A stretch of DNA of 64,000 nucleotides from Dryomyza anilis (Eukaryota > Arthropoda > Insecta > Diptera > Dryomyzidae). The notes under the pieces are model-generated. The model was not told where the DNA came from. It was given only the letters and a program-made list of their open reading frames with translations, and did no database searches. The translations under genes and the position numbers were made by a program. This document shows positions 31,787 to 55,408 of the stretch, in pieces. How positions within the stretch are numbered: the stretch's first letter is position 1; every line of letters starts with the position of its first letter. The stretch is taken from positions 104,552,464 through 104,616,463 of the forward strand of contig OX638131.1 of the NCBI GenBank assembly GCA_951804985.1, in the 5' to 3' direction.

Positions 31787-31856
31787 TTTATTTGTTTATT
31801 GGATGCACTTTTTATTATTCCCAGCAACAAGCAGAGCTACGAGACGCATTTTTAAA

Positions 31857-33063
31857 ATGTCCGCAAATGTAAGTAGGAGTTAATGGTGAAATTAAAATTC
31901 AACTATATAAATAAAACACTAAATAGATGGAGGAAAATTTTGAACCTAAAATAACCTTGGAGACACCACTTGAGGACTACAAAAAGCACATCCAAGAGAA
32001 GCTGCGATGCGACTACTTTGTAGACGATGACGTCATGAAGGCTAATTATAAAAAAATTGCCGCCAAGATCCGCGAAACCATTTGGACGCTATTGTTCGCT
32101 GAGCAACCGGCAAAAGTGGAACATTTGGCCAAAGCTGGCGACTGTCTATACGAGCACAAAATGGATGCATGTTTCCACGGACCATGGGAGTACAATGAAT
32201 GGATACCAAAGGTGCGCGATGAGCTGTTAAAGCGCGAAATGTTGCAATTTTGGCGTACACAAATTGTGGAGCGTGAGTTAGGTCCGTGCTGGGCGCGTGA
32301 CTGCGACTATTTCGATGACATGGACGACAAGGCACCAGAACAGTTCTACAAATATGCTGGATGTGTGGCAGCTTTTATTGCGGATCAAAAAGAGCCAGAG
32401 GCAAAGAAAACAAAATTGACCAATGATGATAATGCTGCTGATGATGGAGACGCAGCATCAACACCTGCACCTGATGATGATGATGCAAACTTTGAAGATG
32501 AAATCTCACTCGAGACACCATTGGAAGACTACAAGCGGCTTATAAAGAAACTTATGCAATGCGAAGATGTGATCGATGACGAAAAATGGCGGGACAATTA
32601 CACAATGATCGCGGATAAGATGCGCATTATCATTTGGGAGCTGCTCTTTGCTGACGCAGCGCCCAAGGAGGAACAGCTGAAGAAAGCGGCTGCCTGTCTG
32701 ATTGAACATAAAATGGAGGCCGTCATTCATGCGCCTTTTGCGTACAATGATTGGATTCGAACGGTGCGAGATGAGTTGCTGAAACGCGAAATGTTTGAAT
32801 TCTGGCGCGATCAAATGGTCAAGCATGAGTTGGGTCTGTGCTGGGCACGTGACTCAGACTACTTTGATGACATGGATGACCTCGAACCGGAGGAGTTCTA
32901 CAAGCGTGCCGGCTGTGTGGCCGTCTTTAGCAAGGAGGGCAAAAAGCAACAAGCGACAGCCGAAAGCAAAGATACGGAAACTAAAAAGGGCGAGAATAAG
33001 TCGGATGAAGATAACAAAGGAAAGGGAGATCAAAAAGAGCAGAAAAGGGCAACGAGTCCATAG
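31857..33063 (+). CDS. Stand-alone double Ku80 C-terminal-domain protein, copy A
   Basis: Two exons, 31857-31868 (MSAN) and 31927-33063, joined across a 58-nt GT-AG intron in phase 0; 382 aa. Domain 1 (about residues 14-150) and domain 2 (about 197-339) are close copies of each other. Both resemble residues 575-703 of the Ku80 protein encoded 8 kb downstream: shared positions include ETP.(E/D)D(Y/F), IIW(E/Q)LLFA, a (E/A)YN(D/E)W motif, FW and ELG.C. In Ku80 this helical domain lies before the tail that recruits DNA-PKcs in vertebrates (family knowledge). The linker and the tail (340-382) are strongly charged. There is no vWA or beta-barrel, so it cannot form the Ku ring itself. Function is unknown; it might bind a Ku80-CTD partner. 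An in-frame TAG ends the protein, but 20 further Lys/Glu-rich codons follow to a TAA at 33124-33126. AATAAA lies at 33132. Confidence 0.85.
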
Positions 33064-33131
33064 AAAAAGGAAAAAAGTCCTGAAAAGAAATCAAAAACTC
33101 TGGAGAAAAAGGAAAAGGCAGAGTAAAATTG

Positions 33132-33137
33132 AATAAA
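33132..33137 (+). terminator. Candidate polyadenylation signal of copy A
   Basis: AATAAA just after the second stop (TAA at 33124). The matching place in copy B is deleted. Confidence 0.4.
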
Positions 33138-33370
33138 ATAGACTACTAACTATAGCATGTAAATAGCAACAGTACAGTTGTGTACTGTATACAAATTGTT
33201 AAACTTTCGAATGTTTTTTTACAAAATTATTATTATTACTAAATACAAGTTCAACTCGAAAAACCTATTAAATTATCTGTTTTAAATGCATGCATTAGTT
33301 AAGTGCTTGGGTTATATGATTCATCAGCATTTTGCCGAAGATGATTTCCGTGAAAAGTGCATAGTATATT

Positions 33371-34061
33371 CTGCTGATATTCTATTCACGCTAGTAATGT
33401 TTTAAAAATAGTATACAGAATATCAGAAATGACGTCACTACCAGAACGGAGCATCTGAAATTAATCATCGATGAGTATTTTAGAATTTGTAATTAATTAG
33501 AATATATAAATGATAACTTGTAAAAGATATCAATATTTTAAAACTTAAACTAATTTAATTTACTAAATTTTTATTTGTTTGTTAACAATTACACAAATAA
33601 AACGATAAAATTTCTAATGCACATCTCATACATCAATACTATATAATTTTTTAATTCTATTACGTAACATTTTTAAGACAATACATATGAACATTTTGGG
33701 CCGTTTAGCGGCTCTTTTTAAATTAAAAAAAAATACAGTCCCTTACATAACTAGTTTTCCAAAAAAACTGTAAATGCATTTTTTATCTCAATTGTCAAGA
33801 CTAATTACAATATACCAAAAAATACTATAATTCCGATAGGGTTTTAAGATATTTGAATTTATATTGAATTGTTATTTCTTTAGAATATTTTTAAAAAGTT
33901 TTTTTACACATTTCGGATAAACAAAAATGATTTACATTATGCAGAGCATATTTTAAACCAAATCTCGGATCGCACGATTAACTAAATTGTTCAAATTTAG
34001 TTAATCCCTGATTAATCAGGGTGTTTGATTAATCATTTAAGCAGTAACGCGATGGGAATCG
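33371..34061. other. Intergenic DNA after copy A, with a dispersed repeat and a palindrome
   Basis: About 33610-33860 matches the repeat at 24245-24480. A perfect 16-bp palindrome CCCTGATTAATCAGGG lies at 34007-34022. No gene. Confidence 0.5.
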
Positions 34062-34185
34062 GACAATTCATCGTATGCACAATCATCGTATGCACAAATT
34101 ATCGTATCACAATTCATCGTATACACAATTCATCGTATGCACAATTCATCGTATCACAAATCATCGTATCACAATTCATCGAATT
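34062..34185 (+). repeat. Short tandem array of ATTCATCGTATGCACA units
   Basis: About seven units of roughly 16 bp, alternately ending GTATGCACA or GTATCACA. Confidence 0.9.
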
Positions 34186-34249
34186 CGAATTTTATTCTTA
34201 ACAATTAAAAAAAAAATAGCGTAAATGTTTTTTGTAAATTTAAATTTTA

Positions 34250-35030
34250 CTATATTATATTTTATATAATTTTTAAAAATCGGTTTTAAATATCTCGGAC
34301 CGTTCTCTATCGATTCCATATATAAAATTTAGGTCCCCTATATGTTTTCATATAAATCTTCTAAACGAAACTAAGTAATTTTTGATTTTTTTTACAAAAA
34401 CACTTCTTCGAAAATTTTATATTTTTTTTATATTTATATTTTATATAATTTTTAAAAATCGGTTTTAAATATCTCGGACCGTTCTCTATCGATTCCATAT
34501 ATATTATTTAGGTCCCCTATATGTTTTCATATAAATCTTCTAAACGAAACTAAGTCATTTTTGATTTTTTTTACAAAAACACTTCTTCGAAAATTTCCCA
34601 CGTTTGAAAATTTTTAAAAATCGGTTTTAGGTACCTTGGACAATTTTCTATCGATTTCATATATAAAATTTAAGTCCCCTATTTGTTTTCATATATATCT
34701 TCTAAACGTAGCGATCTCCTTTTTTTCGTTGTTTACCAAAACCCATTTTATCGAAAATTTCCCACATTACAAAATTTTTAAAAATCGGTTTTAAATGCCT
34801 CGGACCATTTTCTATCGATTCCATATACAAAATTTAGGTCCCCTATATGTTTTCATATATATCTTATAAACGAAATTAAGTCATATTAGATTTTTTTTAC
34901 AAAAAACTTTTCTTCGAAAATTTCCCACGTTTGAAAATTTTTAAAAATCGGTTTTAGATACCTTGGACCATTCTCTATCGATTCCATATATAAAATTTAG
35001 GTTCCCTTTATGTTTTCATATGATTTGAAC
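34250..35030 (+). repeat. Satellite array, about 163-bp period, five units
   Basis: The phrase TTTTTAAAAATCGGTTTTA recurs with CGGTTTTA at about 34281, 34460, 34622, 34786 and 34949, spacing 179, 162, 164 and 163. Each unit also has CTATCGATTCCATATA, TTTAGGTCCCCTATATG and TCTTCTAAACGAAA. It lies between Ku80-derived copies A and B. Confidence 0.9.
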
Positions 35031-35489
35031 ATATCTTCTAAACCAACAAATGACAGAATTTATATTTTCATATAATCGTTGTTTTATTAATTTATATATT
35101 TTATTAATTTATATAAATTAATAAAACGCTCATAAAAATTTATATTATTGGTAATTTTTGTAAATTAGACCTTTATTTAGTTTAAAAATTAATTAATTAA
35201 TTTTGTTTACAATTGTTTACATCAAAAAATCGCTACGAATTTAATTTGACGTAATTGTCTACATGGTTAGTGTCTTTGCTAGACGTCAGAAATCGGTAAG
35301 AATTTAACTTCACTTACTTAAAAATTTTAATAGTTTTAGTGGACTAAAAGGCTTAAATCATTAATATATTATAGTTTACGATATGTTTATTGCTTACGAT
35401 TTAGTAAAAAACGAATTAAACACTAAAAAATTAAACACAACAAAAAATATTATATGAAATTACAATTGCTGTAAATTAAAAAAAAAAAT

Positions 35490-37020
35490 GAAAAATGCCT
35501 CCCGACACAAGTGTGATACCACGTTGGAATCTACAACTCCATAGCTATCACGCTAACTTGCTGCGTACTCGGAGAATCCTTTCTGGACTTCGCAATTCAC
35601 GTCCAAAGTAATCTCAATATAAGAACATTTTTTAATGAAAATAAATGTGTGTGAAGATATCATAAAAAGATATCCATAAATGTTAACTGCTTAACAGATG
35701 TGGGACATTTGTTAAATGATTTTTGACTGATCTAAAAATGAATAAAAACTCTAAAAAATAGTTTTTTTAATAGTTTTAGTAATCATTAATATATTATAGT
35801 TTTCAATAAGAATATTGCTTTAATTTAGTAAAAAACGAATTAAACACTAAAAAAACAAAAAAGATTTATATAAAATTAAAATTGCTGTAAATTAAAAAAA
35901 AATCCTCCCACACAAGTGTGATACCACGTTGGAATCTTCAACTCCATAGCTATCACGCTAACTAGGAGAATCTTCTTTGGACTTCGCAATTTGCGTCCAA
36001 AGTAACCTCAAAATATGAAAATTTTTCTTGAAAATAACCCAACCGTAGGACCACTCCCGTTTTTAAAAAAATGCCTCCCCAAATAAGTGGACCTCGCAAT
36101 TCGCGTCCAAAGTTACCTCCAAATTGTTTATGAAAATAAACCAACTGTAGGACCACTCCTGTTTTTAAAAAAATGCCTCCCCAAATAAGTGGAGCACCTT
36201 TTTGAAATCGTTATGCCCTTATCTAGTTATGGATAGTAGGTCACCATGCGGAGAATCCTCTGTGGACCTCGCAATTTGCGCCCAAAGTAACTTCCAAAAA
36301 TGAAAATTTTTTATGAAAATAACCAAACTTTTGGACCACTCCCGTTCTTAAAAAAATGCCCCCCCAAATAAGTGGAGCACCTTTTTGGAAACGTTATGCA
36401 CTTATCTAGTTATGGTTAATAGGTCACCATGCGGAGAATCATCTGTCGACCTCGCAATTCGCGTCCAAAGTTACCTCCAAATTTTTTATGAAAATAAACC
36501 AACTGTAGGACCACTCCAGTTTTTAAAAAAATGCCTCCTTAAATAAATGGAGGACCTTTTTGGAATCGTTATGCCCTTATCTAGTTATGGATAGAAGGTC
36601 ATCACGCGGAGAATCTTCCCTGGACTTCGCAATTTGCGTCCAAAGTAACCTCCAAATATGAAAATTTGTCTTGAAAATAACCCAACCGTAGGACCACTCC
36701 CGTTTTTAAAAAAATGCCTAACCAAATAACTGGAGCACGTTTTTGGAATCGTTGTGCCCTTATCTAGTTATGGAGAGTAGGTCACCACGCGGAGAATCTT
36801 TTCTGGACCTCGCAATTTGCGTCCAAAATAACATCCAAATATGAAAATTTTTTATGAAAATAACCCAACTTTGGATCACTCCCGTTCTTAAAAAAATGCG
36901 TCCCCAAATAAGTGGAGCACCTTTTTGGAAACGTTATGCACTTATCTAGTTATGGATAGTAGGTCCCCACGCGGAGAAACTTCTCTGGACCTCGAAATTT
37001 TAGTCCAAATTTCATTGTCC
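35490..37020 (+). repeat. Satellite array, about 181-bp period
   Basis: GCGGAGAATC starts units at about 36250, 36433, 36608, 36790 and 36973 (spacing 175-183). More diverged or truncated units lie near 35570 and 35965. Each full unit has CTCGCAATTTGCGTCCAAAG, GGACCACTCCCGTT and CTTATCTAGTTATGG. It abuts the promoter side of copy B. Confidence 0.9.
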
Positions 37021-37275
37021 TTAATATTGATTCGTTAACAGCATTTGTTTAAATTTACGGTTATGTTTTTCGTCCAGTATCCAGTTTTTTATGACATCCC
37101 TGACTTTTGTTCTTCTATGAAATGTCAGACCGGTAGAGTGTTGCCCACACAAAACGATGTTTACAACAACATTATTTTTATTTTTCTTGTGGTTGTTTTA
37201 AAATATTAGATTATTATTTCATTATTTGTTTATTGGTACGCTTTTTTTTACAGAGCTATAAGACGCATTTTTAAA

Positions 37276-38404
37276 ATGTCCACAAATGTAAGTAGTAGTT
37301 AATGGTGAAATTAAACTATTTAAATTAAATACCCAATAGATAGAGGAAAGTTTTGAACCAATAATAACTTTGGAGACACCGCTGGAAGACTATAAAAAGC
37401 TCATCAAAGAGAAGATGCAATGCTACTACATTGTAGACGATGATGTCACTAAGGCCAATTATAAAAAAATTTCCGCCAAAATGCGCGAAACCATTTGGAC
37501 GCTATTGTTCGCTGAGCAACCGGCAAAAGTGGAACATTTGGCCAAAGCTGGCGACTGTCTCTACGAGCACAAAATGGATGCATGTTACCACGGACCATGG
37601 GAATACAATGAATGGATACCAAAGGTACGCGATGAGCTGTTGAAGCGCAAAATGTTGCAATTTTGGCGTAAACAAATGGTAAAATCTGAGTTGGGTCCGT
37701 GCTGGGCACGTGACAGCAACTATTTCGATGACATGGACGACAAGGCACCGGAGCAGTTCTACAAATATGCTGGATGTGTGGCAGCTTTTAGTGCGGATAA
37801 AAAAAAGCCAGAGACAAAGAAAACAAAATTGACCAATGATGATAATGCTGCTGATGTTGGAAACGCATCATCAACACCTGATGATGATGAGGACTTTGAA
37901 CCTGAAATCTCACTCGAGACACCATTGGAAGACTACAAGCGGCTTATAAAGGAACATATGCAATGCGATAATGTGGTCGATGACGACGAATGGCGGGACA
38001 ATTACACAAAGATCGCGGATAAGATGCGCGAAATCATTTGGGAGCTGCTCTTTGCTGACGCAGCGCCCAAGGAGGAACAGCTAAAGAAAGCTGCTGCTTG
38101 CCTGATTGAACACAGAATGGATGCTGCCTTTCATGAGCCTTGGGCGTACAACGAATGGATTCCAACGGTGCGTGACGAGTTGTTGAAACGCGAAATGTTT
38201 GAATTCTGGCGGGAGCAAATGGTCGAGCATGAGTTGGGTCTGTGCTGGGCACGTGATTCAGACTACTTCGATGACATGACGGACCTTGAGCCGGAGGAGT
38301 TTTACAAGCATGCCGGCTGTGTGGCTGTCTTCAGCAAGGAGGGCAAAAAGCAACAAGCGGCTGCCGAAAGGCATAGTAAAATTACGACTAGGTATAGTAT
38401 GTAA
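37276..38404 (+). CDS. Stand-alone double Ku80 C-terminal-domain protein, copy B
   Basis: Two exons, 37276-37287 (MSTN) and 37340-38404, with a 52-nt GT-AG intron in phase 0; 358 aa. It is a close paralogue of copy A, with domain 1 at about residues 14-150 and domain 2 at about 194-335, and long identical stretches. The ATG that opens exon 2 in copy A is ATA here, so only the upstream exon-1 ATG explains both genes. The charged tail of copy A is missing: relative to A, 151 bp (equivalent to 32967-33117) are gone at an AAAG microhomology, and translation runs through RHSKITTRYSM into former 3' untranslated sequence. Neither domain is interrupted. Homology with copy A runs from about 37222 to 38607 (A: 31787-33370), covering promoter-proximal and 3' flanking DNA, so the whole gene was duplicated. 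Role unknown. Confidence 0.85.
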
Positions 38405-38621
38405 ATAGCAACAGTACAGTTGTGTACTGTACACAAATTGTTTAACTTTCGAATGTTATTTTTTATAAACTTATTATTATTATTACAAAATATAAGTTCA
38501 ACTCGAAATATCTATTAAATTATCTGTTTTAAATGCATGCATTAGTCAAGTGCTTAAGTTATATGATCCATCAGCATTTGGCGGGAGACTATTTCTCTGA
38601 AAACTGCAGAGTATGCTTTAA

Positions 38622-38940
38622 AAATAATAATAATATAATAATGGTTTGGAGCTACAGTCCTATTAGAACTTAGGCCGAGTTCTCTCACCATTTTGAGCTG
38701 TGCGTGTTATATTTGTACTCAAAGTGGTGAGACCTACAGTTTATTGCCGAATCCGAACGGCGGGCGAAAGCTTTTCATAGGCAATGTTTTACTCTCGTAG
38801 GTTTGCCATTTACTGCCGAGAGATAGCGCGGTGTAGAAAAATGTTTCTATGAAAAGATGTTGTTAGCTCCAAGTCCAGATTTGAACCGGGGACCTTTGGA
38901 CTCGCAGTCCAACGCACTAACCACTGAGCTACCGCGGCTA
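38622..38940 (-). mobile_element. tRNA-derived SINE, copy 2
   Basis: Full-length inverse copy of the SINE at 25913-26217. The tRNA-like head (A box inverse CCACTGAGCTA near 38921-38931, B box inverse TTGAACC at 38881-38887) is at the right end and the ATT-rich tail at the left. No clear target duplication is left. It sits at the downstream edge of the copy-B duplicated block. Confidence 0.9.
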
Positions 38941-40789
38941 CAACTTACAAACAACTCACTTACACTTGTAAAAAAACTGAAGTATTTTTCGTTTCTTTCA
39001 GTTTTTCTTAGAATCTCATTTAAAGTCACATCGATAAGGAGGCGTGGCCGACAAGAATTAATACATATTTTTTTCGGTATAGGGTCTTGGTAAAGAACTG
39101 ATTATTAAATTTTTTCCAAAATTGTTCCCAAATTTCTTCCAAAAGTAAGATGGTTAAAACAATTATTTTGATTGATTTGAAATGATTTTCTATATTAAAT
39201 AAGCATATAATGTGATACTTTTGATTTAAAATATGTCAGCATTAATTTATTTGGAATACAAATCGATGTAATTTGGATTATTTTTATTTTCACATTCAAT
39301 TTACAATATATTTTCATTAGCTTGAGTCTAACTTTGATCTGGGTGTTTATTGGGAGGTTTTATGCAATTAAATTTATTTGTTTTTTATTTACTTATTGTT
39401 TATAAAATTTTGCACAATTTTTTAAAATGTTTTTATGCATCATGTAAAAAGTATGAAAGTGGCAACTCTGTTATATTGATAAAAAGTATTAAAACTGACA
39501 AACAGAGGTCGCCCTGAACGCACTACAGCTGTTTCTTGATTTTATTTCAGTGATACCAACTTCATGGGTTTCCACTAAATCTGGTGGGTTTTAAAAAATA
39601 AAATGCGAGAAAAATTGTACGGTGGACAGTGGGTTTTTTTTTGTGTGTTTTTAGTTTCGACACAGAATGTTTATAATTTAGCTTTTTTTTTTTTATTAAA
39701 TTTCATTGAAATTATACTTTTTATATTGTATAACTTCTCCGTGTACAGCAACACAGAGGTGATTGTGGGTTTTTTGACCGAAGTAGCTAACGGTTCGATT
39801 GTATAAAGAAGGATTCGTGTCTAATCCATTTCAGGATTTAGTGCATTTCGTTTTGTTTTCTATTCGTTTAAATCTGTAATTTGGTATTTAAATAAAATAA
39901 GAGAAGCATTATCTACAATATGCATATCGTCGAGGTGGTAAGACTCGCCTATACAATTTTTACAAAAACTTATTTTTAAACATATTTTTGTTAATACTAT
40001 AAAAATGAAAACCATTTAAATACTATGTTCTCATTAATGTATGTCAATGTCGATCTAATAGATTAGAAACCATCGGATACAAAAGTACTTTTGTAAACCT
40101 ATTATTAAAATTTTTAAAATGTAGTTGGTGACTTCGAGAAACAGAAAAAACTTGAACGGATGCCACAATGAATTGCTTTTTTTTCTTGGATTGAGTTTAA
40201 GAATTATTAGATTTCTTAGTGCTTCGAGACATGGAAGACTGAAGTCATGACATGGCAGACTGAAGTTTTGTTGAAATAATTTTGTTGTCCTTAATTTTTA
40301 AATTGTTAAACTAAGTTCTTAGTTAAATGTAAATGCAAATGAAATTCGATGAAAAACCAATTTTCGCAGAAGGGTTACGAAATAAAATACATTATTATAT
40401 TTAGTGATAGTCTTACGTTATTTGTTATTGTGAACAAATCCTGTATAAAAATTTTCAAAATGTATAAAAACGGAGGGTTTTGCTTAAAATATGGGTTTCT
40501 TGCCTCGATTTAGTGGTTTTTACTTTTGAGAAGTTGGCAACACTGTTTTATTTGCAATTTGAAATTGTTGATGTTTGTGAAATTGTGAAATACGGGAGAA
40601 ATCCAGTTATCTGTGCCATTTATATTTATAGTTTGTATAGCGTACGGCGTTGTTACCGCGTATAAAGTGCAAATAAAACTATTTTGAAAAGTACATTTTT
40701 TTAAAATAATTCTCTACTTCGGTGTGGAAACTGACGGAGTAATTAAAATCCTAAAAAAATATACTATATAACCAGCTAAATTTTAAATA
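38941..40789. other. Intergenic DNA upstream of Ku80
   Basis: No convincing gene; the 67-codon frame at 39603-39806 has no recognised domain. One arm of the CGTTGTAGAAC element family lies at 40117-40138. The stretch just before Ku80 shares GAAATTGTGAAATA with sequence upstream of copy A (near 31771), a hint that copies A and B kept part of the Ku80 upstream region. Confidence 0.45.
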
Positions 40790-43700
40790 ATGGCAAATAA
40801 GGTGCGTAGAAAATAGAATATTTTAATTCAAAATTAAGAATCACTTAATTCATTTCAGGAATGTTTGGTTATAATATTAGATGTGCGCCAAAATGCGTCC
40901 ATTGAACACAAAAGGAACTCGTTGCAATGTATGACGGATGTGCTCAAGGAAAAGGTAGGTGTCACGATTTTCATTTGTATTTTAAAATAATCTAAATAAT
41001 TTCACGTATTCGCTAAGATTTGCACCGGCAAAAAAGACTTTGTGTCTTTTGTACTGCTTGGAACGCAGCGCACATATAACCTGGTCAATACGAATGTTTG
41101 TCCCGAGGGTTATATGAACATTGTGCAGTACCCAAAGGCTGTGCTGCCCTCCTGGCAGGTGCTCGTCGATTTTATGCGTTTTGTGAATGAGCCCTCGTGC
41201 AACGATGGCGAGTGGTTGGATGCATTGGTGGTGGCCATGGAAGTCATAAAAAATACAGAAGAGTATGTAGTTGGTTGGCAGCAGCTTTTAGGGCTTGCTT
41301 TATTAATTTTGTAATATTTTAGAGAACAAAAATTTCAACGTTCACGCATTTTGCTCTTTCACGACTTTGATAGTCCGGGCATGAACTACGACATGTTTGA
41401 TGCGATCATTATGAATTTGGCAAAGGCAGAAATCAAGCTGATTGTCGTGTAAATATTAAATATGATTATACTTGATTTAAATAGTACTTATAAATGGTAC
41501 TTCTTACAAAGTCAAACTATAAAATATTAAAAAATCCTATTTAAACTCCTACCGTACAGCTCCAACAATATACAGTACATTGACAATGCCGCCACTGGCG
41601 AACCACAAGCTGTATTTCGTGCATTGTCCACCAAAAAATCTTATCAGTTAGAAAATGAAAAATATGCACTACGTCTTGTGACCAATTGCAGCGCGACGCT
41701 ATGCAATTTCGCAGCGGCCAGCAGCACCATTAACTATGTGATAAACAAACGTCCGTGGTGCTGGTCCCATACCCTGAGTATTGGCACGAAAATTACAATG
41801 AAAATAAGCGGCATGATTGCCATAAAAAATGAAAATCAAGTTAAATTGAAAAAATGCTGGGGTGGTGTTGGCGAAGAAGCCAGACGCGAGACAAAATCCT
41901 ACATAGGCGAGAAGGAAGTACAACCACTTCCGGATGATCTCATCGGCGGCTATATGCTGGGTTCGACACCGATTGCCTTTGATGATGAGGTTATCGACGA
42001 GCCACTGCAAGAGCAACACGAACCTGGTTTGACGTTTTTGGGTTTTGTGAAACGTGATGCTATTCCTGAGGAATACTATACCGGTGATTCGCTATACTGG
42101 GTGGTGCATCAAAAGGGCATGACGGCATCTGCCAAGAAAATGGATGCGCTGGTGAAAGCGATGCTGCAGACGGAGATGGCCATGCTGTGCTGGAAGGTTT
42201 ACAGTGTCAAATTCAATACGCCGAAGGCGGTGGTGCTGCTACCAAATAAGGTGCGTCAGATGTTTTATATATGTATTCAAAGAATTGTGTTCACAGCAAT
42301 GTCAAATTTTTTATATAACTTTTAGTACAACTTTCAGTGAAACTTTTGGTAAAACTTTCAGTACAACTTTTCGTACAATATTTAGTACAACTTTTAGTTC
42401 AACTTTTTGAAAAACTTTTAGTACAACTTTAAGTTCAACTTTTAGAACAACTTTTCGTACAACTTTTATCACTACAATTTTTAGTACTGTGCTTTGCACG
42501 ATTAACGTTGGTTAATTTGAAAAAAAAAAAATTGTGCACCATCTTTTAGTAAAACTTTTAAAACTAGTTTTAGTACAACATTTAGTACAACGTTTAGAAC
42601 ATCTCATTTTAATTACTCAGTTTATATTTGAATACTAAATAAATTTAGTATTCATTTCTGAGCACTCAATTTTTGGTACTAAATTTTTGAATAATGAATT
42701 TTAAGTACTAATTGTTAAGTACTAAATGTTAAGTACTAAATTTTAAGTAGTAAATTTTAAGTACTAATTTTGAGTACTAAATTTTGGGTACTAAATTCTG
42801 AAATTAATTTTGAGTACTAAATTTTGAGTACTAAATATGTAGTAATAAATTTTGAATACTTATTTCTGAAGCGTTAATTGTGAATACTATATTTTGTGTA
42901 CTAAATTTTGGGTACTAATTTGGAGTACTAAATGTTGAGTACTAAATTGAGCCATACTAAATGAGTACTAAATTTTGAAAACTAAATTTTAAGTAGTAAA
43001 TTTTGAGTACTAAATTTTGAGTACTAAATTTTGAGTACTAATTTTTGAGTACTAATTTGGAAGTACCTACTAAATTTTGAGTACTAAATTATGAGTATTG
43101 ATTTTGTATTTTAAATTTTGAGTACTAATTTTGATGTACTATATTTTGGATTCTACATTGTGAGTACTAAATTTTGAGTACTAAATTTTGAGTACTCATT
43201 TCTGAGTTATTAATTTTGAATACTAAATTCTTTTGGATTCAAAATTTTAGTACTAATTATGAGTACTAAATTATGAGTACTAAATTTTAATTACTATATT
43301 TGAAGACCTAATTTTCGAGGCATTAAATTTTAATTTTTAAAATTAAATTTAATTCAAATTCCTTCAATCGCAGCTTTCAGATGATCGTCCCGCCTCGCTC
43401 TCAATGATTGAGCTCGCCTACCACGCGCAGCACGTCTTCTGGGATTTTCCCACATTGCGCACAAAGAAAAACGTCTGCAGCGCCGCACAAATCGATGCCA
43501 TCGATGAGCTAATCGATGCCATGGATTTAACCATTGACGCCAAGGTGGCGCAAGAACCACGCGACACAATGCAACGTGATTTGCTCCCCTTCGACACGTT
43601 GCCGCATGTTTACGAACAATATTTTCTCGATATGCTCGAACGAAAGGTATTGAATACCGTCGGCGCCGAAGATGATTACATACAGGATCTGGTAGCGGAG

Positions 43701-44384
43701 AAGGACTACAAGGAGTTATTCTGGAAACTACCCGAACCTATAGAGCAGCGTGCAAAGAGCGCGGCCAAAAGGGTTAAAGAGCTCTTTCCGCTCGAGAGCA
43801 GAGGCGTCGTCAAACCCAAGGTAGAAGTGAAAAAGGAACCAAGTGATGGTGTTGCAAATAACAACAACAACAATACACAGCAGTGCAGCCAAAATCAAGA
43901 AGATGCAAATATTCCAAACCGCATTGGGCTGCTCACACCAGCCGATGATTTTGAAAAACTACTCAAACAACACATACTGCGTTTGGACGATAAAACGCAG
44001 CGTGATGCTAAATTTCAACTGTATGCCAAACAAATGCGCGACATCATCTGGCAGCTTTTGTTTGCTACCAAACCGTTGAATGCCACAAAAGTCTCCGATG
44101 CTTTGAAGGTGCTGCGCAAGTGCAGTCTCGATTTTAATGCCTTCGGCGAGTATAACGATTGGTTGCGTGCGTTGAAGACACAGGTTTGCAAACAACGTCT
44201 CTTTGATTTTTGGCAAAATCACATTACCAAGTACGAGCTTGGTTTGTGTGTCATCGGTGAATTGTCGCTCGATGAGAAATTGGATTTGCAACAATTTTAT
44301 AAAATTGATACCGGTACCGGTGCGCTGCCGGATGATTTGGAAATGACCGATGAGTCGGTGGATGCACTGCTGGCCAACATGTAA
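40790..44384 (+). CDS. Ku80: Ku80, X-ray repair cross-complementing 5 homologue (six exons)
   Basis: Exons: 40790-40801, 40859-40954, 41018-41262, 41323-41448, 41560-42250, 43374-44384; 2181 nt, 726 aa. All introns are GT-AG and every junction keeps frame. Domains: vWA-like N-terminal domain (about residues 5-165; ECLVIILDVRQNAS opening, RILLFHDFDSPG core strand), Ku beta-barrel core (about 200-390 and into exon 6; LGFVKRDAIPEEYYTGDSLY, YSVKFNTPKAVVLLPNK), helical arm (390-520), a Lys/Glu and Asn-rich linker (530-570) and the C-terminal helical domain (575-703). With Ku70 it forms the ring that binds DNA ends in non-homologous end joining and at telomeres (family knowledge). The last residues, acidic and short, are where DNA-PKcs binding lies in vertebrates. 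The last intron (1123 nt) is full of two minisatellites. The gene follows the two Ku80-CTD genes on the same strand, 2.4 kb from copy B. Confidence 0.95.
42306..42480 (+). repeat. Ku80: Intronic minisatellite, CAACTTTTAGTA units
   Basis: About fifteen 12-bp units (TACAACTTTTAG, TTCAACTTTTAG) near the start of the last Ku80 intron. The minus-strand and plus-strand open frames here are artefacts of the repeat. Confidence 0.85.
42660..43300 (+). repeat. Ku80: Intronic minisatellite, TACTAAATTTTGAG units
   Basis: About forty variable 14-bp units fill the rest of the last Ku80 intron up to about 70 bp before the acceptor at 43373. Confidence 0.9.
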
Positions 44385-44553
44385 TTGGTGTTTAAGTTTC
44401 TTTTTCTACTTGTTTTTTTAAATGTTATGTTTTCTTTTAAGTTTTTTTTTTAAATCAGTTGTTTTTTTTACTATTAGATATGCTAAGAATTTGAAATGCG
44501 TTTAGTGTACCAGATGTACGCGAAGCATATTGAAAAAATATGTGAACAATTTG

Positions 44554-44563
44554 AATAAATAAA
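44554..44563 (+). terminator. Ku80: Ku80 polyadenylation signal
   Basis: Overlapping AATAAA hexamers (AATAAATAAA) 170 nt after the Ku80 stop codon. Confidence 0.6.
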
Positions 44564-44864
44564 TATTAATGAATTCTTTAAGATGATTAAGAGGTAACTT
44601 TTATATAAAACAATCAATAGGTGACTTTATAAACAAAAGGCAACTTCGTTGTAGATCTAAAAATTAGCTATTCTATTTTTAAATATTCAATAATTGTTTT
44701 CGAAATACAAAAATCATAAAATTGTGACAAATACGCATCGGCGAGCTCAATATTTGTACCATCTGAAAGTTTATTTTTTTTAATGAAAATTGTATTTTTA
44801 GTGATAGCATTTAAATTTTATTGTAAATTAAATTAAAAAAAAAGTATTTTTTAGAAAATACATT

Positions 44865-50025: not shown

Positions 50026-50137
50026 ACTGATTAAGTTCACCCCTTTTTAATAAAATAATCAAATTCGAAAAATACATGCTGTATTTGCTTTGATATTAAC
50101 TGCAGTTTTTTGTGCATTAAAAAATAGAACTAACGTT

Positions 50138-53100
50138 ATGGCTCTTGATAAGAGCATTGCAGAACAGCGTGCAAGTTTGGATCAACTTAAACAGTTCCAC
50201 AATATTTTTACTAAAAAGAATAGCGCTATGAAAACACGAGGATATTTGAATGGAGTTTTGCAAGAAATTGAAAAATTGTGTACTTCATTTAAAATCAATC
50301 ATGATGCAATTTGCGCCTTAATTCACGAAAATTCCTTAAATGCTTCTGATGTTCCGTACATAGCTGATAATTGTTATTTTGAATATTGTGAACTTTATCT
50401 TGATTTTAAAGGTGAAGTTTTGGAGTCTCTTCCAGAGACATCCACATCACCTCATGCTCTTTACAGTAGTACATTTTCACTACCAAACCGTAATGAAATA
50501 AGCACCAACATAGAGTCTAAACTACCAAAAATTTCATTGCCTAAGTTTTCTGGAGATTATATGGAATGGGTTCCATTTCAAGATATTTATTTATCGCTTG
50601 TTCATGATAACAATTCGCTATCTAAAATTCAAAAATTCTACTATTTGAAAGGTTCATTAATTGGCGAAGCAGCTAACTTGGTAAAAACTATAAGTGCTAC
50701 TGAAGCCAATTACGACTCAGCTTGGTCTATTCTAAAACGTAGGTATCACAATAAGCGTTTAATTGTGGATACACTAACTAAAAAACTTTTTAATATTCCA
50801 AAATCGGAAGGTAACTTCCAGGGAATAAAACAAATTCTTGATACAACGCAAGAATGTCTTTCATCTCTATCAAATCTTGGTGTTTCTACTACTGATTGGG
50901 ATCCGCTTCTGATTTATTTAATTGCTCAGAAACTCGATCTTGATACGAGAAAAGATTGGGAACAATCATTAAAGTCTTCGACTGAAGTCCCAGCAATTGC
51001 AGATATGTTTTCGTTCTTAGAAAGAACTTTTAGGACACTTGAATCTATTTATGAAGAGATTCCGTCTCCTTTAGTTAAAACTTCTAAAGGAAAATTTTCT
51101 AAAAATAAGAACAAAAACAACAATTTTCATTCTAACCATTTAACACGATATCAGCCATGTGCCTATTGTGAAAAGACACATTTTTTAGCAAAATGTTTTA
51201 AATTTCTTGCCTTGTCGTCAGATTTAAAGTATGAATTTGTTACAAAAAATAAACTTTGTCATAATTGCCTTTCAGCAGGTCACAATTATAATGATTGTAA
51301 ATCAACTTATCGTTGCAATATTTGTAAAAAGCAACATCACAGCTTATTGCACGTTGATGAAAATCACACGACAAATGCATCTACTTCTCAAGCTGCTGAC
51401 AGATCATTAAACAGTCATCATGAAATTTGTAGTAATAATTCCACTCATAATACGCAAATGTTTCCAAATGTGTTGCTTTCAACAATACGATTGATGATTA
51501 AGTCCACGAGTGGACAATTTATTCTCAGGGCACTTCTAGATCAGGGTTCTCAAGCTACTTTAATAACCGAAAAGGCTGTTCAACTTCTCAAACTGGGAAA
51601 AAATCGAGTTAATTGCAATGTATCAGGCGTAGGTGATAACAGCGACACACTTTGTCGCAGCAGTGTTTTTTTAAACATATTTTCATTGCAAAATAAACAA
51701 ATATTAGAGTGCAACGCTCTTGTGTTAAACAATTTATCAGCATATGTTCCAAAGGCCTCCAAATTAAACATTTCGGTTGAAGGTATCGAAGTTGATTTTC
51801 TTGCTGATCCACATTACAATAAAGCCGATCCAATTGATTTGCTTCTTGGATCCGATGTTTTTAGTAAAATTGTTATTGCTGGTCAGTCCTTCATTAATAA
51901 CCAATTGTTTTATCAAAACACCTACTTTGGTTGGGTTTTATCTGGACCTACAGGACAAATCAATACTCAGAATGTAGTGGTGAATAATATATATTTAGAA
52001 AATATATTACGATCCTTTTGGGAACAAGAAGAGGTAACGTGTAAACGAGAGTTAACAACAGAAGAAGAAAATTGTGAAAAATATTTCAGTAGCACAACTA
52101 AGCGTACTTTTTCTGGTCGTTACATTGTCAATCTTCCCTTCAGATCAGCTCTGGAAAACAATTCCAATCCATCGTTGTGTAATAACCACTTTAATGCGTT
52201 GAAACGATTGCATAATCTAGAATCATCATTTAATAAGCAACCGTCTTTTCATAATGCTTATAAGGACTTTTTACAAGAATATGAACAATTAAATCACATG
52301 TCAAAAATCGGAAAATATCCCGATGACCTCACAAATTATTCATATTTTTTGCCACACCATGGCGTTTTTAAAGAAACTAGCACTACAACGAAATTAAGAG
52401 TAGTGTTTGATGGAAGTAGTAAACTTCCTGGTTACAATTCTATTAACGATGAGTTATGTCCTGGACCTGCATTACAAAATGATATGCCTAAAATCATTAC
52501 GCGTTGGCGAAGGCACAAGTTCGCTTTTAGCGCAGACATCGAAAAGATGTTTAGACAAATTCAGGTTGCTTCAGAGCACCAGAATTATCAACAAATACTA
52601 TGGCGTCATAATATTAGTGATGACGTTTGCATTTATAAAATGAACACTGTCACCTATGGTACAACGTCAGCTCCATATCTTTCAATAAGGGTTCTTCAAC
52701 AATTAGCTAATGATTACATAGATATATATCCAAAAGCAGCAAAAGTTTTGCTTTTAGATTCATATGTGGATGATATAATGTCCGGCTCAGATACTTTATC
52801 AGACGCCCTAGCATTACATAAAGACTTATGTTTGCTACTAAATAAAGGTGAATTCACTCTACGAAAATGGATATCTCATTCAGCTGAATTTATTGAAGAA
52901 ATCCCACCAGATCTAAGAGAAAATTCGAATACACTTGATTTCAATGATAACAATATTGTTAAAACACTTGGAGTTCAGTGGAACACCACCTCAGATTCTT
53001 TTACATTTAAATTGCATTTAGACGAACCTAAAAATATAACAAAACGATCTATATTATCCGATTCAGCTCGTCTTTTCGACCCATTAGGGTGGTTGACCCC

Positions 53101-55408
53101 CTCTACTGTTATTTCAAAAATATTATTTCAAAAATTGTGGTTAGCAGGAGTTGATTGGGATGATAAGGTCCCCAGTGACATTCAAACAGATTGGATAAAT
53201 TATAGATCTTCTTTGAAGCTAATTCAAGAAATCAAAATTTCTAGATGGTTTGGATATCGGCCAGATACAACATTTGAATTGCACTGCTTCTGCGATGCCT
53301 CACAAGCAGCGTATGCTGCAGTTGTTTATGCAAGAATTCAGTCTAGCTGCGAAGTATTTATAAATATTTTACAAGCTAAATCTAAGCTAGCGCCTGTAAA
53401 AACAATATCCATTCCTAAGCTAGAGCTTTGTGCTGCTACCTTGTTAGCTAAACTTGTATCAACAGTCAAAGAATCATTTGATTCAAATTTAATTTCAAAT
53501 ATAACGTACTGGAGCGATAGTACCACTGTCTTAAGTTGGATAAGACAACCGCCAGCTCGTTGGAGTGTTTATGTTGCCAATAGAGTCGGAGAAATTCAAA
53601 GATATACAAACATAGTTCAATGTAAGTATGTACCATCGGCTGAAAACCCAGCAGATTGTGCTTCACGAGGTAAAATGCCCGCCGATTTAAAAGATTTTAA
53701 TTTATGGTGGCATGGCCCACAATTTCTGAAATTGCCATCGTCTTCATGGCCAAAATATATTTCTGATTATCAGACTACTTTAGAAGAGCGAAAACATAAA
53801 GTTATATTGCATGCAACGCAAGTAGTATCCTACCCCGATATTTTTCTTAAATTCTCCTCTTTCAATAAGTTGCTTCTTGTTGGTACGACGTGCTACAGAT
53901 TTATTCGAAACTGTAAGGAAAATAAAAATTGTAAAGATGTTGGTAGTCTTACATCAAAATCAGTCCGAACAACTATGTATTCGTTCGTTAAAATAATTCA
54001 AAAGATTGACTTTAATGCAGATTACAATAAACTTTTGTTGCATAAAGAAATCAGCAACAAAACCTTGCTTAAACTCATGGCATTTATTGACGAATCAGGT
54101 TTACTGCGAGTGGGAGGTCGATTGCAAAATTCTCAATTTTCTTTTGAAAAGAAACATCCACTACTTTTGACTAAGCATAACCCATTGTCAAAATTAATAA
54201 TTTTAGATGCACATGAGAGAACATTGCACGGTGGTATAACTTTAACAATGTCTTATGTGAATCGTACATTTTGGATTTTATCAGGCACTCAATTAGCCAA
54301 AACGTTATTAGGAAAATGTATGATTTGTTTCAAATATACTGCGAAAACTTCGCAACAAATAATGGGCAATCTACCACCTGTTCGTCTCAATGTCACGAGG
54401 CCCTTTAAGCACAGTGGAGTAGATTACGCTGGTCCCATTTCCATTAAAAATTCTTCACTTAGATCTGCTGTCATATCTAAAGGATATATTTGTCTATTTG
54501 TGTGTATGGTCACAAAAGCTTTACATTTGGAAGTTGTGTCTGACTTGACCACTACCGCGTTTTTAGCAGCTTTTAGACGGTTTGTGTCAAGAAGAGGTAG
54601 TTGCACAGATATTTACTCTGATTGCGGCACTAATTTTGTTGGCGCATCTAAGGAATTGAAAGTACTCTTACATAAATCAGAATCATCATTGCCAAATGAA
54701 CTGCTTGACACTCTTTCGATGATTGGTACTGATTGGCATTTTATTCCTCCTGCTTCTCCAAATTTTGGTGGTCTTTGGGAAGCAGGTGTAAAATCGGTTA
54801 AATATCACCTAAAACGAATTTTAAGCTTTGAAGAACTTGCCACATTACTTTGTCAAATAGAGGGAAGTCTGAATTCCAGGCCCCTTTGTCCGCTCACATC
54901 TGATCCTAGAGATACTGATGCCTTAACACCAGCACACTTTTTGATAGGGGAACCAACCAATTGCTTACAGGAAGAAAATTTGTTAGATGTAAACATTAAT
55001 CGTTTGACCCGATGGAAATCTATTGAGAAATTAAAACAACATTTTTGGAATCGCTGGTATTCCGAATATTTAAATAGATTGCAGGCTAGACCAAAATGGC
55101 TGCACGCGAAACCAGATGCTAAAATAGGAGATTTGGTCCTTATTGCCGATGAACGATATGCTCCTGGACAGTGGGCATTAGGAAGGATTAGTGACATTCA
55201 CCCTGGAGCTGACGGACGTGTTCGAGTAGTTTCTATTATTTCAAAAAACAAACTTATTAAAAGACCAATTTCTAAAATCTGTTTTTTACCTTCAGATGAA
55301 CCTATTAATGAAACTGGATATAAAAAATCGTTGTCTAAATCCACGGATAATGAGATGGAGCCTACTGAATCGCGCTGTGAGTCGGAGCATAGCGAAGTTT
55401 TGACTTGA
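50138..55408 (+). CDS. Gag-Pol polyprotein of the BEL/Pao element
   Basis: Starts at the first ATG in frame (MALDKSIAEQ) and is open for 1756 codons without a stop. Order of parts (approximate residues): Gag with a DUF1759-like stretch (KISLPKFSGDYMEW, 130-270); three Cys/His knuckles (340-400, CAYCEKTHFLAKC type); aspartic protease with DQGSQ (Asp 468); reverse transcriptase with SADIEKMF and the YVDD active site (about 876-879); RNase H with FCDAS (about 1050); integrase with an HHCC zinc part (about 1357-1400), core Asp near 1429 and 1494 and Glu near 1547; and a DUF5641-like C-terminal part with KIGDLVLI (1630-1720). All catalytic residues visible are in place, so the element may still be active. 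The frame extends 48 nt upstream of this ATG without another ATG. Confidence 0.95.
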   Translation: MALDKSIAEQRASLDQLKQFHNIFTKKNSAMKTRGYLNGVLQEIEKLCTSFKINHDAICALIHENSLNASDVPYIADNCYFEYCELYLDFKGEVLESLPETSTSPHALYSSTFSLPNRNEISTNIESKLPKISLPKFSGDYMEWVPFQDIYLSLVHDNNSLSKIQKFYYLKGSLIGEAANLVKTISATEANYDSAWSILKRRYHNKRLIVDTLTKKLFNIPKSEGNFQGIKQILDTTQECLSSLSNLGVSTTDWDPLLIYLIAQKLDLDTRKDWEQSLKSSTEVPAIADMFSFLERTFRTLESIYEEIPSPLVKTSKGKFSKNKNKNNNFHSNHLTRYQPCAYCEKTHFLAKCFKFLALSSDLKYEFVTKNKLCHNCLSAGHNYNDCKSTYRCNICKKQHHSLLHVDENHTTNASTSQAADRSLNSHHEICSNNSTHNTQMFPNVLLSTIRLMIKSTSGQFILRALLDQGSQATLITEKAVQLLKLGKNRVNCNVSGVGDNSDTLCRSSVFLNIFSLQNKQILECNALVLNNLSAYVPKASKLNISVEGIEVDFLADPHYNKADPIDLLLGSDVFSKIVIAGQSFINNQLFYQNTYFGWVLSGPTGQINTQNVVVNNIYLENILRSFWEQEEVTCKRELTTEEENCEKYFSSTTKRTFSGRYIVNLPFRSALENNSNPSLCNNHFNALKRLHNLESSFNKQPSFHNAYKDFLQEYEQLNHMSKIGKYPDDLTNYSYFLPHHGVFKETSTTTKLRVVFDGSSKLPGYNSINDELCPGPALQNDMPKIITRWRRHKFAFSADIEKMFRQIQVASEHQNYQQILWRHNISDDVCIYKMNTVTYGTTSAPYLSIRVLQQLANDYIDIYPKAAKVLLLDSYVDDIMSGSDTLSDALALHKDLCLLLNKGEFTLRKWISHSAEFIEEIPPDLRENSNTLDFNDNNIVKTLGVQWNTTSDSFTFKLHLDEPKNITKRSILSDSARLFDPLGWLTPSTVISKILFQKLWLAGVDWDDKVPSDIQTDWINYRSSLKLIQEIKISRWFGYRPDTTFELHCFCDASQAAYAAVVYARIQSSCEVFINILQAKSKLAPVKTISIPKLELCAATLLAKLVSTVKESFDSNLISNITYWSDSTTVLSWIRQPPARWSVYVANRVGEIQRYTNIVQCKYVPSAENPADCASRGKMPADLKDFNLWWHGPQFLKLPSSSWPKYISDYQTTLEERKHKVILHATQVVSYPDIFLKFSSFNKLLLVGTTCYRFIRNCKENKNCKDVGSLTSKSVRTTMYSFVKIIQKIDFNADYNKLLLHKEISNKTLLKLMAFIDESGLLRVGGRLQNSQFSFEKKHPLLLTKHNPLSKLIILDAHERTLHGGITLTMSYVNRTFWILSGTQLAKTLLGKCMICFKYTAKTSQQIMGNLPPVRLNVTRPFKHSGVDYAGPISIKNSSLRSAVISKGYICLFVCMVTKALHLEVVSDLTTTAFLAAFRRFVSRRGSCTDIYSDCGTNFVGASKELKVLLHKSESSLPNELLDTLSMIGTDWHFIPPASPNFGGLWEAGVKSVKYHLKRILSFEELATLLCQIEGSLNSRPLCPLTSDPRDTDALTPAHFLIGEPTNCLQEENLLDVNINRLTRWKSIEKLKQHFWNRWYSEYLNRLQARPKWLHAKPDAKIGDLVLIADERYAPGQWALGRISDIHPGADGRVRVVSIISKNKLIKRPISKICFLPSDEPINETGYKKSLSKSTDNEMEPTESRCESEHSEVLT

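Follow-up and report, generated by a model that had tools for sequence, protein, structure and literature searches.

Organization of the EGI and Ku80 genes

In the window, i.e. the 64,000-nt stretch of Dryomyza anilis DNA analysed as a whole, two genes homologous to EndoGI, designated EGI-A and EGI-B, were located upstream of an intact Ku80 gene, all on one strand, with the following features.

31857–33063, + strand: EGI-A, EndoGI homologue, 382 aa (exon 1, 31857–31868; exon 2, 31927–33063)
34063–37009, unstranded: intergenic spacer separating EGI-A from EGI-B; it contains several tandem-repeat arrays (periods include 15, 164, 179, 183 and 358)
37276–38404, + strand: EGI-B, tandem EndoGI paralogue, 358 aa (exon 1, 37276–37287; exon 2, 37340–38404)
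40790–44384, + strand: Ku80 (XRCC5), six exons, 726 aa (40790–40801, 40859–40954, 41018–41262, 41323–41448, 41560–42250 and 43374–44384), identified by gene model, homologues and a PDB match of the last exon
43374–44384, + strand: last exon of Ku80, encoding the C-terminal domain, a relative of the EndoGI domains

Gene modelling gave GT-AG introns for EGI-A and EGI-B, with intact frames and splice sites in both. A purpose-built domain profile, made from these sequences, yielded two domains per EGI gene (residues 10–152 and 194–336 in EGI-A; residues 10–152 and 191–333 in EGI-B) and one in Ku80 (residues 571–707 of the 726-aa model). The gene models and this profile thus agreed with the original prediction, in which two intact two-exon genes, each encoding two tandem domains, lay near Ku80 on the same strand and the Ku80 domain was placed at residues 575–703. 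If exons 3/4 of Ku80 are spliced differently, the product has 729 aa.

In Pfam searches, Ku_PK_bind (PF08785) was the only family above cut-off for EGI-A and EGI-B, with two matching stretches in each second exon (2.2e-12 and 8.2e-16, both better than the curated threshold), and it also matched the last exon of Ku80 (6.8e-13). No vWA or Ku-core family was found for either EGI gene at E up to 10, as had been anticipated for the Ku vWA and barrel. The proposed homology with the Ku80 C-terminal domain was borne out by these matches and by the predicted fold, and chance cannot account for a likeness of this degree. The C-terminal domain of Ku80/XRCC5 (PDB 1Q2Z and 1RW2), encoded adjacently, shares domain family and fold with the EGI proteins, whereas no vWA or Ku core was found in the latter.

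Identity with EndoGI and the expected target

EndoGI is an inhibitor of endonuclease G (EndoG) that consists of two Ku80-like domains and has been crystallised with EndoG (PDB 3ISM). Drosophila EndoGI (CG4930; 3ism_C) matched the second exon of EGI-A with an E-value of 8.6e-82 (residues 9–335 of the query), leaving the C-terminal tail of EGI-A outside the match, and that of EGI-B with an E-value of 3e-81 (residues 3–322 of the query). The best structural match of the predicted EGI-A fold was likewise 3ISM chain C, and each of its domains had the fold seen there; the arrangement of the two domains with respect to each other did not superpose (whole-chain rmsd 26.6, pTM 0.48), with low pLDDT in the linker (residues 155–188). 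EndoGI and the EGI proteins thus share near-full-length homology, two Ku-CTD-like domains with a linker, and the same fold. These sequence and fold matches ruled out independent Ku80-derived genes of an uncharacterised kind, and the original view of the pair as unnamed Ku80 derivatives had to be replaced. The likeness of EndoGI to the Ku80 C-terminal domain has already been published (PMC13086865). EndoGI as a two-domain Ku80-like EndoG inhibitor is known, and the pair beside Ku80 adds detail, not a new kind of protein.

Residues conserved in the EndoGI family that have no Ku80 counterpart occupied 31 columns, with departures of the EGI proteins at 3. Where Ku80 has its own sequence, the EGI proteins kept the EndoGI-specific block R-D-x-D-x-F...D...P except for one N. 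In each copy, one domain carried a substitution of a near-invariant acidic residue, i.e. N for D in domain 1 of EGI-B (RDSN) and E for D in domain 2 of EGI-A; in all four domains, C occupied a position that is usually L.

An EndoG orthologue (L036) was encoded in the genome of D. anilis, together with two diverged EndoG-like open reading frames (L035 and L037). Near-full-length homology, the two-domain fold of the EGI-A model, the EndoGI-specific residues, the presence of an EndoG orthologue and purifying selection (see below) together support our reading, held with a probability of about 0.92, that EGI-A and EGI-B are EndoGI orthologues, tandemly duplicated in this fly lineage, and, as we infer, bivalent inhibitors of EndoG. 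Each Ku80-CTD-like domain would block a single active site in the EndoG homodimer. EndoG straying from mitochondria into the nucleus would thereby be neutralised, except when apoptosis released enough of the nuclease to overwhelm the inhibitor.

Given the EndoGI identity, the expected partner is, judging from sequence, most likely EndoG and not DNA-PKcs or Ku, and the earlier proposal of a partner shared with the Ku80 C-terminus was not upheld. A characterised role in nuclease inhibition thereby takes the place of a speculative one in DNA repair. Flies are reported to lack DNA-PKcs; its family PF08163 was unmatched in the D. anilis genome and likewise in 14 of 14 control genomes, so that the controls were silent. 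According to PMC13086865, human Ku80 residues 384–732 bind EndoG with a KD of 72.7 nM. This makes a common partner possible and, with the shared fold and sequence, would be compatible with a DNA-repair role in which the EGI proteins and the Ku80 C-terminal domain compete for a partner; such a role is nevertheless very improbable, as the near-full-length match was to EndoGI, the EndoGI-specific block was kept apart from one N, and the two groups of domains were split in the domain tree.

Homologues in other flies and domain phylogeny

The two-domain form of EndoGI was present in Drosophila, tephritids, Teleopsis and calyptrates, and the homologues of Teleopsis, Rhagoletis, Anastrepha, Zeugodacus, Musca, Lucilia, Calliphora and Episyrphus had the same two-domain architecture as the EGI proteins. 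The highest identity with EGI-A was 54%, in the short protein P0079; homologues that span most of EGI-A reached no more than 50%. Teleopsis likewise had two EndoGI genes (P0003 and P0017), and two further homologues (P0018 and P0025) probably lie on one 17,286-bp contig, as judged from equal-sized contigs. From the equal size of the longest contigs matched, close linkage of EndoGI and Ku80 is also probable in Musca vetustissima. PMC6932890 describes a chromatin-contact network in which ku80 and EndoGI belong to the same cluster; membership of a cluster does not mean adjacency.

In the domain tree, rooted on mosquito Ku80 as an assumption and accompanied by a program warning of long branches meeting, the EndoGI and Ku80 domains fell on opposite sides of one branch (support 100/99). 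Domains 1 and 2 grouped within lineages, and a single origin of domain 1 was rejected (p-AU 0.0004) for a clade chosen for testing only after the tree had been seen; with the window and Teleopsis alone, a single domain 1 clade was not rejected (p-AU 0.104). Between domains 1 and 2, synonymous change had reached saturation over the whole domain and was at least 0.8 in each 36-codon piece where estimable. This ruled out recent conversion of one domain by the other within an EGI gene; any conversion must be old.

The original prediction had part of Ku80 copied, the domain doubled and then the gene doubled. This order is plausible and largely holds, but many flies have the two-domain form, so that the gene doubling alone is recent, and the within-lineage grouping makes a single clean doubling of the domain too simple. 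EndoGI probably originated in an ancestor of the cyclorrhaphan flies, when the C-terminal domain of the adjacent Ku80 was duplicated in tandem, an origin supported by the adjoining position of EndoGI and Ku80 here and, by extension, in Musca. A bolder and rather doubtful proposal is that the fly Ku80 C-terminal domain itself binds EndoG and that EndoGI split off as a dedicated inhibitor, stayed adjacent and expanded here alongside three EndoG-like nucleases, Ku80-EndoGI forming one EndoG-control locus. If so, the human Ku80-EndoG contact would be ancestral, and it would become clear why flies, which reportedly lack DNA-PKcs, have kept the Ku80 C-terminal domain. The proximity of the two genes makes EndoG binding by the fly Ku80 C-terminus a testable question, in view of the contact that PMC13086865 gives for human Ku80.

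Duplication, selection and repeat-borne fragments

Purifying selection acts on the EGI pair. The dN/dS between EGI-A and EGI-B was 0.31, a value as low as which was reached in 0 of 1000 neutral simulations; the YN00 estimate (0.087/0.146 = 0.60) indicated weaker constraint. The claim that the gene had doubled with both copies constrained was thus sustained. Some near-invariant positions were changed and the C-terminal tails of the two copies differed, as might be expected if one were a decaying, functionless duplicate; this is very unlikely, however, since frames and splice sites were intact in both, only 12 of 1000 neutral simulations remained stop-free and none attained the observed dN/dS.

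The same differences in RDSN and the tails, in a genome that encodes two diverged EndoG-like frames besides its EndoG orthologue, would also suit a division of labour, one copy acting on mitochondrial EndoG and the other on a diverged EndoG-like protein, or a split between tissues. We regard this as possible though not probable, as relative-rate tests with four outgroup species were all non-significant (chi-square <= 1.33), by which faster evolution of one copy was also rejected; for domain 2, with EGI-B domain 1 as outgroup, 10 versus 3 changes (chi-square 3.77) narrowly missed significance at the 5% level. Drosophila has EndoG-like paralogues alongside a single EndoGI, so that one-to-one pairing of inhibitor and nuclease is not required. 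The two EndoGI orthologues would most likely serve to raise the amount of one kind of inhibitor or to vary its expression.

A literature search gave, among the matches listed, no title on a duplication or evolutionary account of EndoGI. New here are the tandem EndoGI duplication under purifying selection, the probable linkage in Musca, the within-lineage grouping of domains and the repeat-borne fragments of EndoGI and Ku80. Such natural duplicates offer material for studying the evolution of a bivalent inhibitor that acts on a homodimeric nuclease. The repeat-borne fragments corresponded to two segments of the window, found by blastn of loci against the window in the case of EndoGI.

31848–32989, + strand: EndoGI segment including intron 1, degenerate pieces of which occur within dispersed repeats at other genomic sites
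43628–44640, + strand: Ku80 last-exon segment with 256 bp of 3′ flank, carried whole or partly by a dispersed repeat

The dispersed repeat carrying the Ku80 segment had inverted ends of about 48 bp.

EndoGI homologues adjoining Ku80

EGI-A and EGI-B, the window's two homologues of EndoGI (endonuclease G inhibitor; Drosophila CG4930), were two-exon genes with open reading frames and GT-AG splice sites, located upstream of the Ku80 (XRCC5) gene on the same strand.

31857-31868 + 31927-33063, + strand: EGI-A, two exons, 382 aa
37276-37287 + 37340-38404, + strand: EGI-B, two exons, 358 aa
40790-44384, + strand: Ku80, six exons, 726 aa (729 aa with another splice choice)

Pfam family Ku_PK_bind was matched above cut-off by EGI-A (2.2e-12), EGI-B (8.2e-16) and the last exon of Ku80 (6.8e-13), and no Ku vWA or core family was listed by Pfam for the second-exon reading frames of EGI-A or EGI-B. 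A profile built from these sequences found two domains, 1 and 2, in each EGI protein and one in Ku80 (residues 571-707). The coordinates and motifs given in the original prediction, which had described two genes of duplicated Ku80 C-terminal domains beside Ku80, were correct. That observation was borne out, but it is largely explained by a known gene, EndoGI; what is new is the tandem EndoGI duplication adjoining Ku80, its probable old linkage and the repeat-borne gene fragments, which are of moderate interest, for specialists. The EGI genes and Ku80 also had in common a four-codon first exon followed by a phase-0 intron, which weakly suggests a shared origin but may be due to chance. Intron 5 of Ku80 (42309-43301) consisted mostly of tandem repeats with periods of 12 and 14 bp, and a 1772-aa long open frame at 50090-55408 resembled, by eye, a BEL/Pao-type LTR retrotransposon polyprotein.

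Loll 2009 and Temme 2009 reportedly described EndoGI as nuclear, with its two domains filling both active sites of the endonuclease G (EndoG) dimer. In the EGI proteins both domains, their fold and most of the conserved residues were retained, and we infer that these proteins inhibit EndoG. Across 42 EndoGI domains from other flies, 31 columns were at least 85% conserved; the window's four domains differed in three of these: L to C in all four, D to E in EGI-A domain 2, and D to N in EGI-B domain 1. The R-D-x-D-x-F...D...P block, which follows the Ku-like helices, was EndoGI-specific and retained in the window domains save for the N of EGI-B domain 1; this acidic block would contact the nuclease. 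In one report, the structure of the EndoGI-EndoG complex is described as solved, EndoGI domain 1 as structurally closest to the C-terminus of Ku80, and residues 384-732 of human Ku80 as binding EndoG with a KD of 72.7 nM (PMC13086865).

The EndoG orthologue (L036, on sequence C4) matched CG8862, the EndoG in the same crystal as EndoGI, with E 1.2e-147. Two diverged EndoG-like open frames, L035 (C2:44.1 Mb; 6.6e-87) and L037 (C2:35.3 Mb; 1.1e-83), had DRGH and ERGH, respectively, at the same place. These three were among 16 PF01223 matches in the genome.

Selection on the copies and domain history

EGI-A and EGI-B shared 82.7% amino acid and 88.8% nucleotide identity over 358 aligned codons. 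By NG86 (342 codons, 98 nucleotide differences), dN was 0.074 and dS 0.238, a ratio of 0.31; YN00 gave 0.60. In 1000 neutral simulations placing about 103 changes on EGI-A with a transition bias of 2, the median dN/dS was 0.78 and the minimum 0.40, none being as low as that observed, and with stops permitted only 12 of 1000 runs were stop-free. Most likely, both copies have been retained as proteins since duplication.

A tree of 62 domains, from 21 of the 47 EndoGI homologues, 15 of the 33 Ku80 homologues and the window (first two Musca autumnalis domains absent), was rooted on mosquito Ku80. EndoGI and Ku80 domains were split with support of 100/99; Teleopsis was nearest to the window's EndoGI domains (93/92) and, weakly, to its Ku80 domain (91/72). 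Domains 1 and 2 clustered within lineages (window, 99/93; Zeugodacus, 97/88). In an AU test decided on after tree inspection and run without six ambiguous rows (from Calliphora, Episyrphus and M. autumnalis), a single domain-1 clade was rejected for 20 versus 20 schizophoran domains (p-AU 0.000425), but not for the window and Teleopsis alone (p-AU 0.104). This grouping is compatible with old gene conversion, with repeated re-duplication of a domain and with convergence on the same dimeric target; recent conversion is unlikely in the window, since synonymous change between domains 1 and 2 was saturated in its genes.

EndoGI and its probable linkage to Ku80 in other flies

EGI-A matched 36 proteins in a protein search, and a profile search matched 44 (only the 7,994 candidates sharing most words being scored); of the 44, all 28 with a source name were from cyclorrhaphan flies, namely schizophorans and the hoverfly Episyrphus. 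The two-domain form was present in Drosophila, tephritids, Teleopsis and calyptrates, and a Cochliomyia homologue already carries the name endonuclease G inhibitor. The Episyrphus entry, which by eye resembles two near-identical single units in succession, could be an annotation fusing them. Teleopsis had two EndoGI genes and two further EndoGI-like proteins are probably encoded on one 17,286-bp contig; duplication is thus not confined to D. anilis. Cochliomyia P0009 and Lucilia P0016 carried a basic, hydrophobic stretch ahead of the usual start, judged by eye to be mitochondrial presequence-like.

Twelve species had EndoGI-like and Ku80 entries both stating longest-contig size, and in 11 an EndoGI entry gave the same size as Ku80: Drosophila montana, D. 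arizonae, D. grimshawi, D. busckii, D. rubida, Teleopsis dalmanni, Calliphora vicina, Musca autumnalis, M. vetustissima, Haematobia irritans and Eurosta solidaginis. The exception was D. immigrans (2,480,496 versus 4,762,247). Since contigs were chromosome-sized in most of the 11, equality suggests only a shared chromosome there. In M. vetustissima, EndoGI (P0030) and Ku80 (P0046) both listed 18,431 bp and so probably lie within 18.4 kb; a second EndoGI-like entry (P0023) gave 22,127 bp, and a second Calliphora entry (P0078) likewise listed a different contig.

Dispersed gene pieces and repeats

EGI-A had 36 genome matches: the two EGI genes, Ku80, and 33 others in 26 stretches, all retrieved. 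In 11 stretches (L010, L011, L012, L014, L019, L027, L028, L030, L031, L033 and L034), all or part of the Ku80 last-exon segment 43628-44640 lay inside a repeat, whose inverted ends were about 48 bp and 88-96% alike in four copies (L010, L011, L012, L027) and similar in L019. A 670-bp piece of it, lying beyond the Ku80 segment, had 1108 first-look candidates in the genome (40 scored), so the repeat is probably abundant, some copies having captured Ku80 DNA. The other 15 stretches (L009, L013, L015-L018, L020-L026, L029, L032) held degenerate EndoGI-like pieces, ten with a shared repeat core and five looser (L009, L013, L021, L022, L026). Because several aligned to the gene from 31848 through intron 1, they appear to be genomic copies, not processed ones. 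Pieces of both neighbouring genes, EndoGI and Ku80, have thus been captured by repeats. Long inverted repeats, their arms spanning about 670-810 bp, enclosed the Ku80 piece in L014 (1348-2107/3963-4679) and EndoGI pieces in L024 (71-738/4781-5522) and L032 (1461-2267/3494-4294), the arms of L014 and L024 being related.
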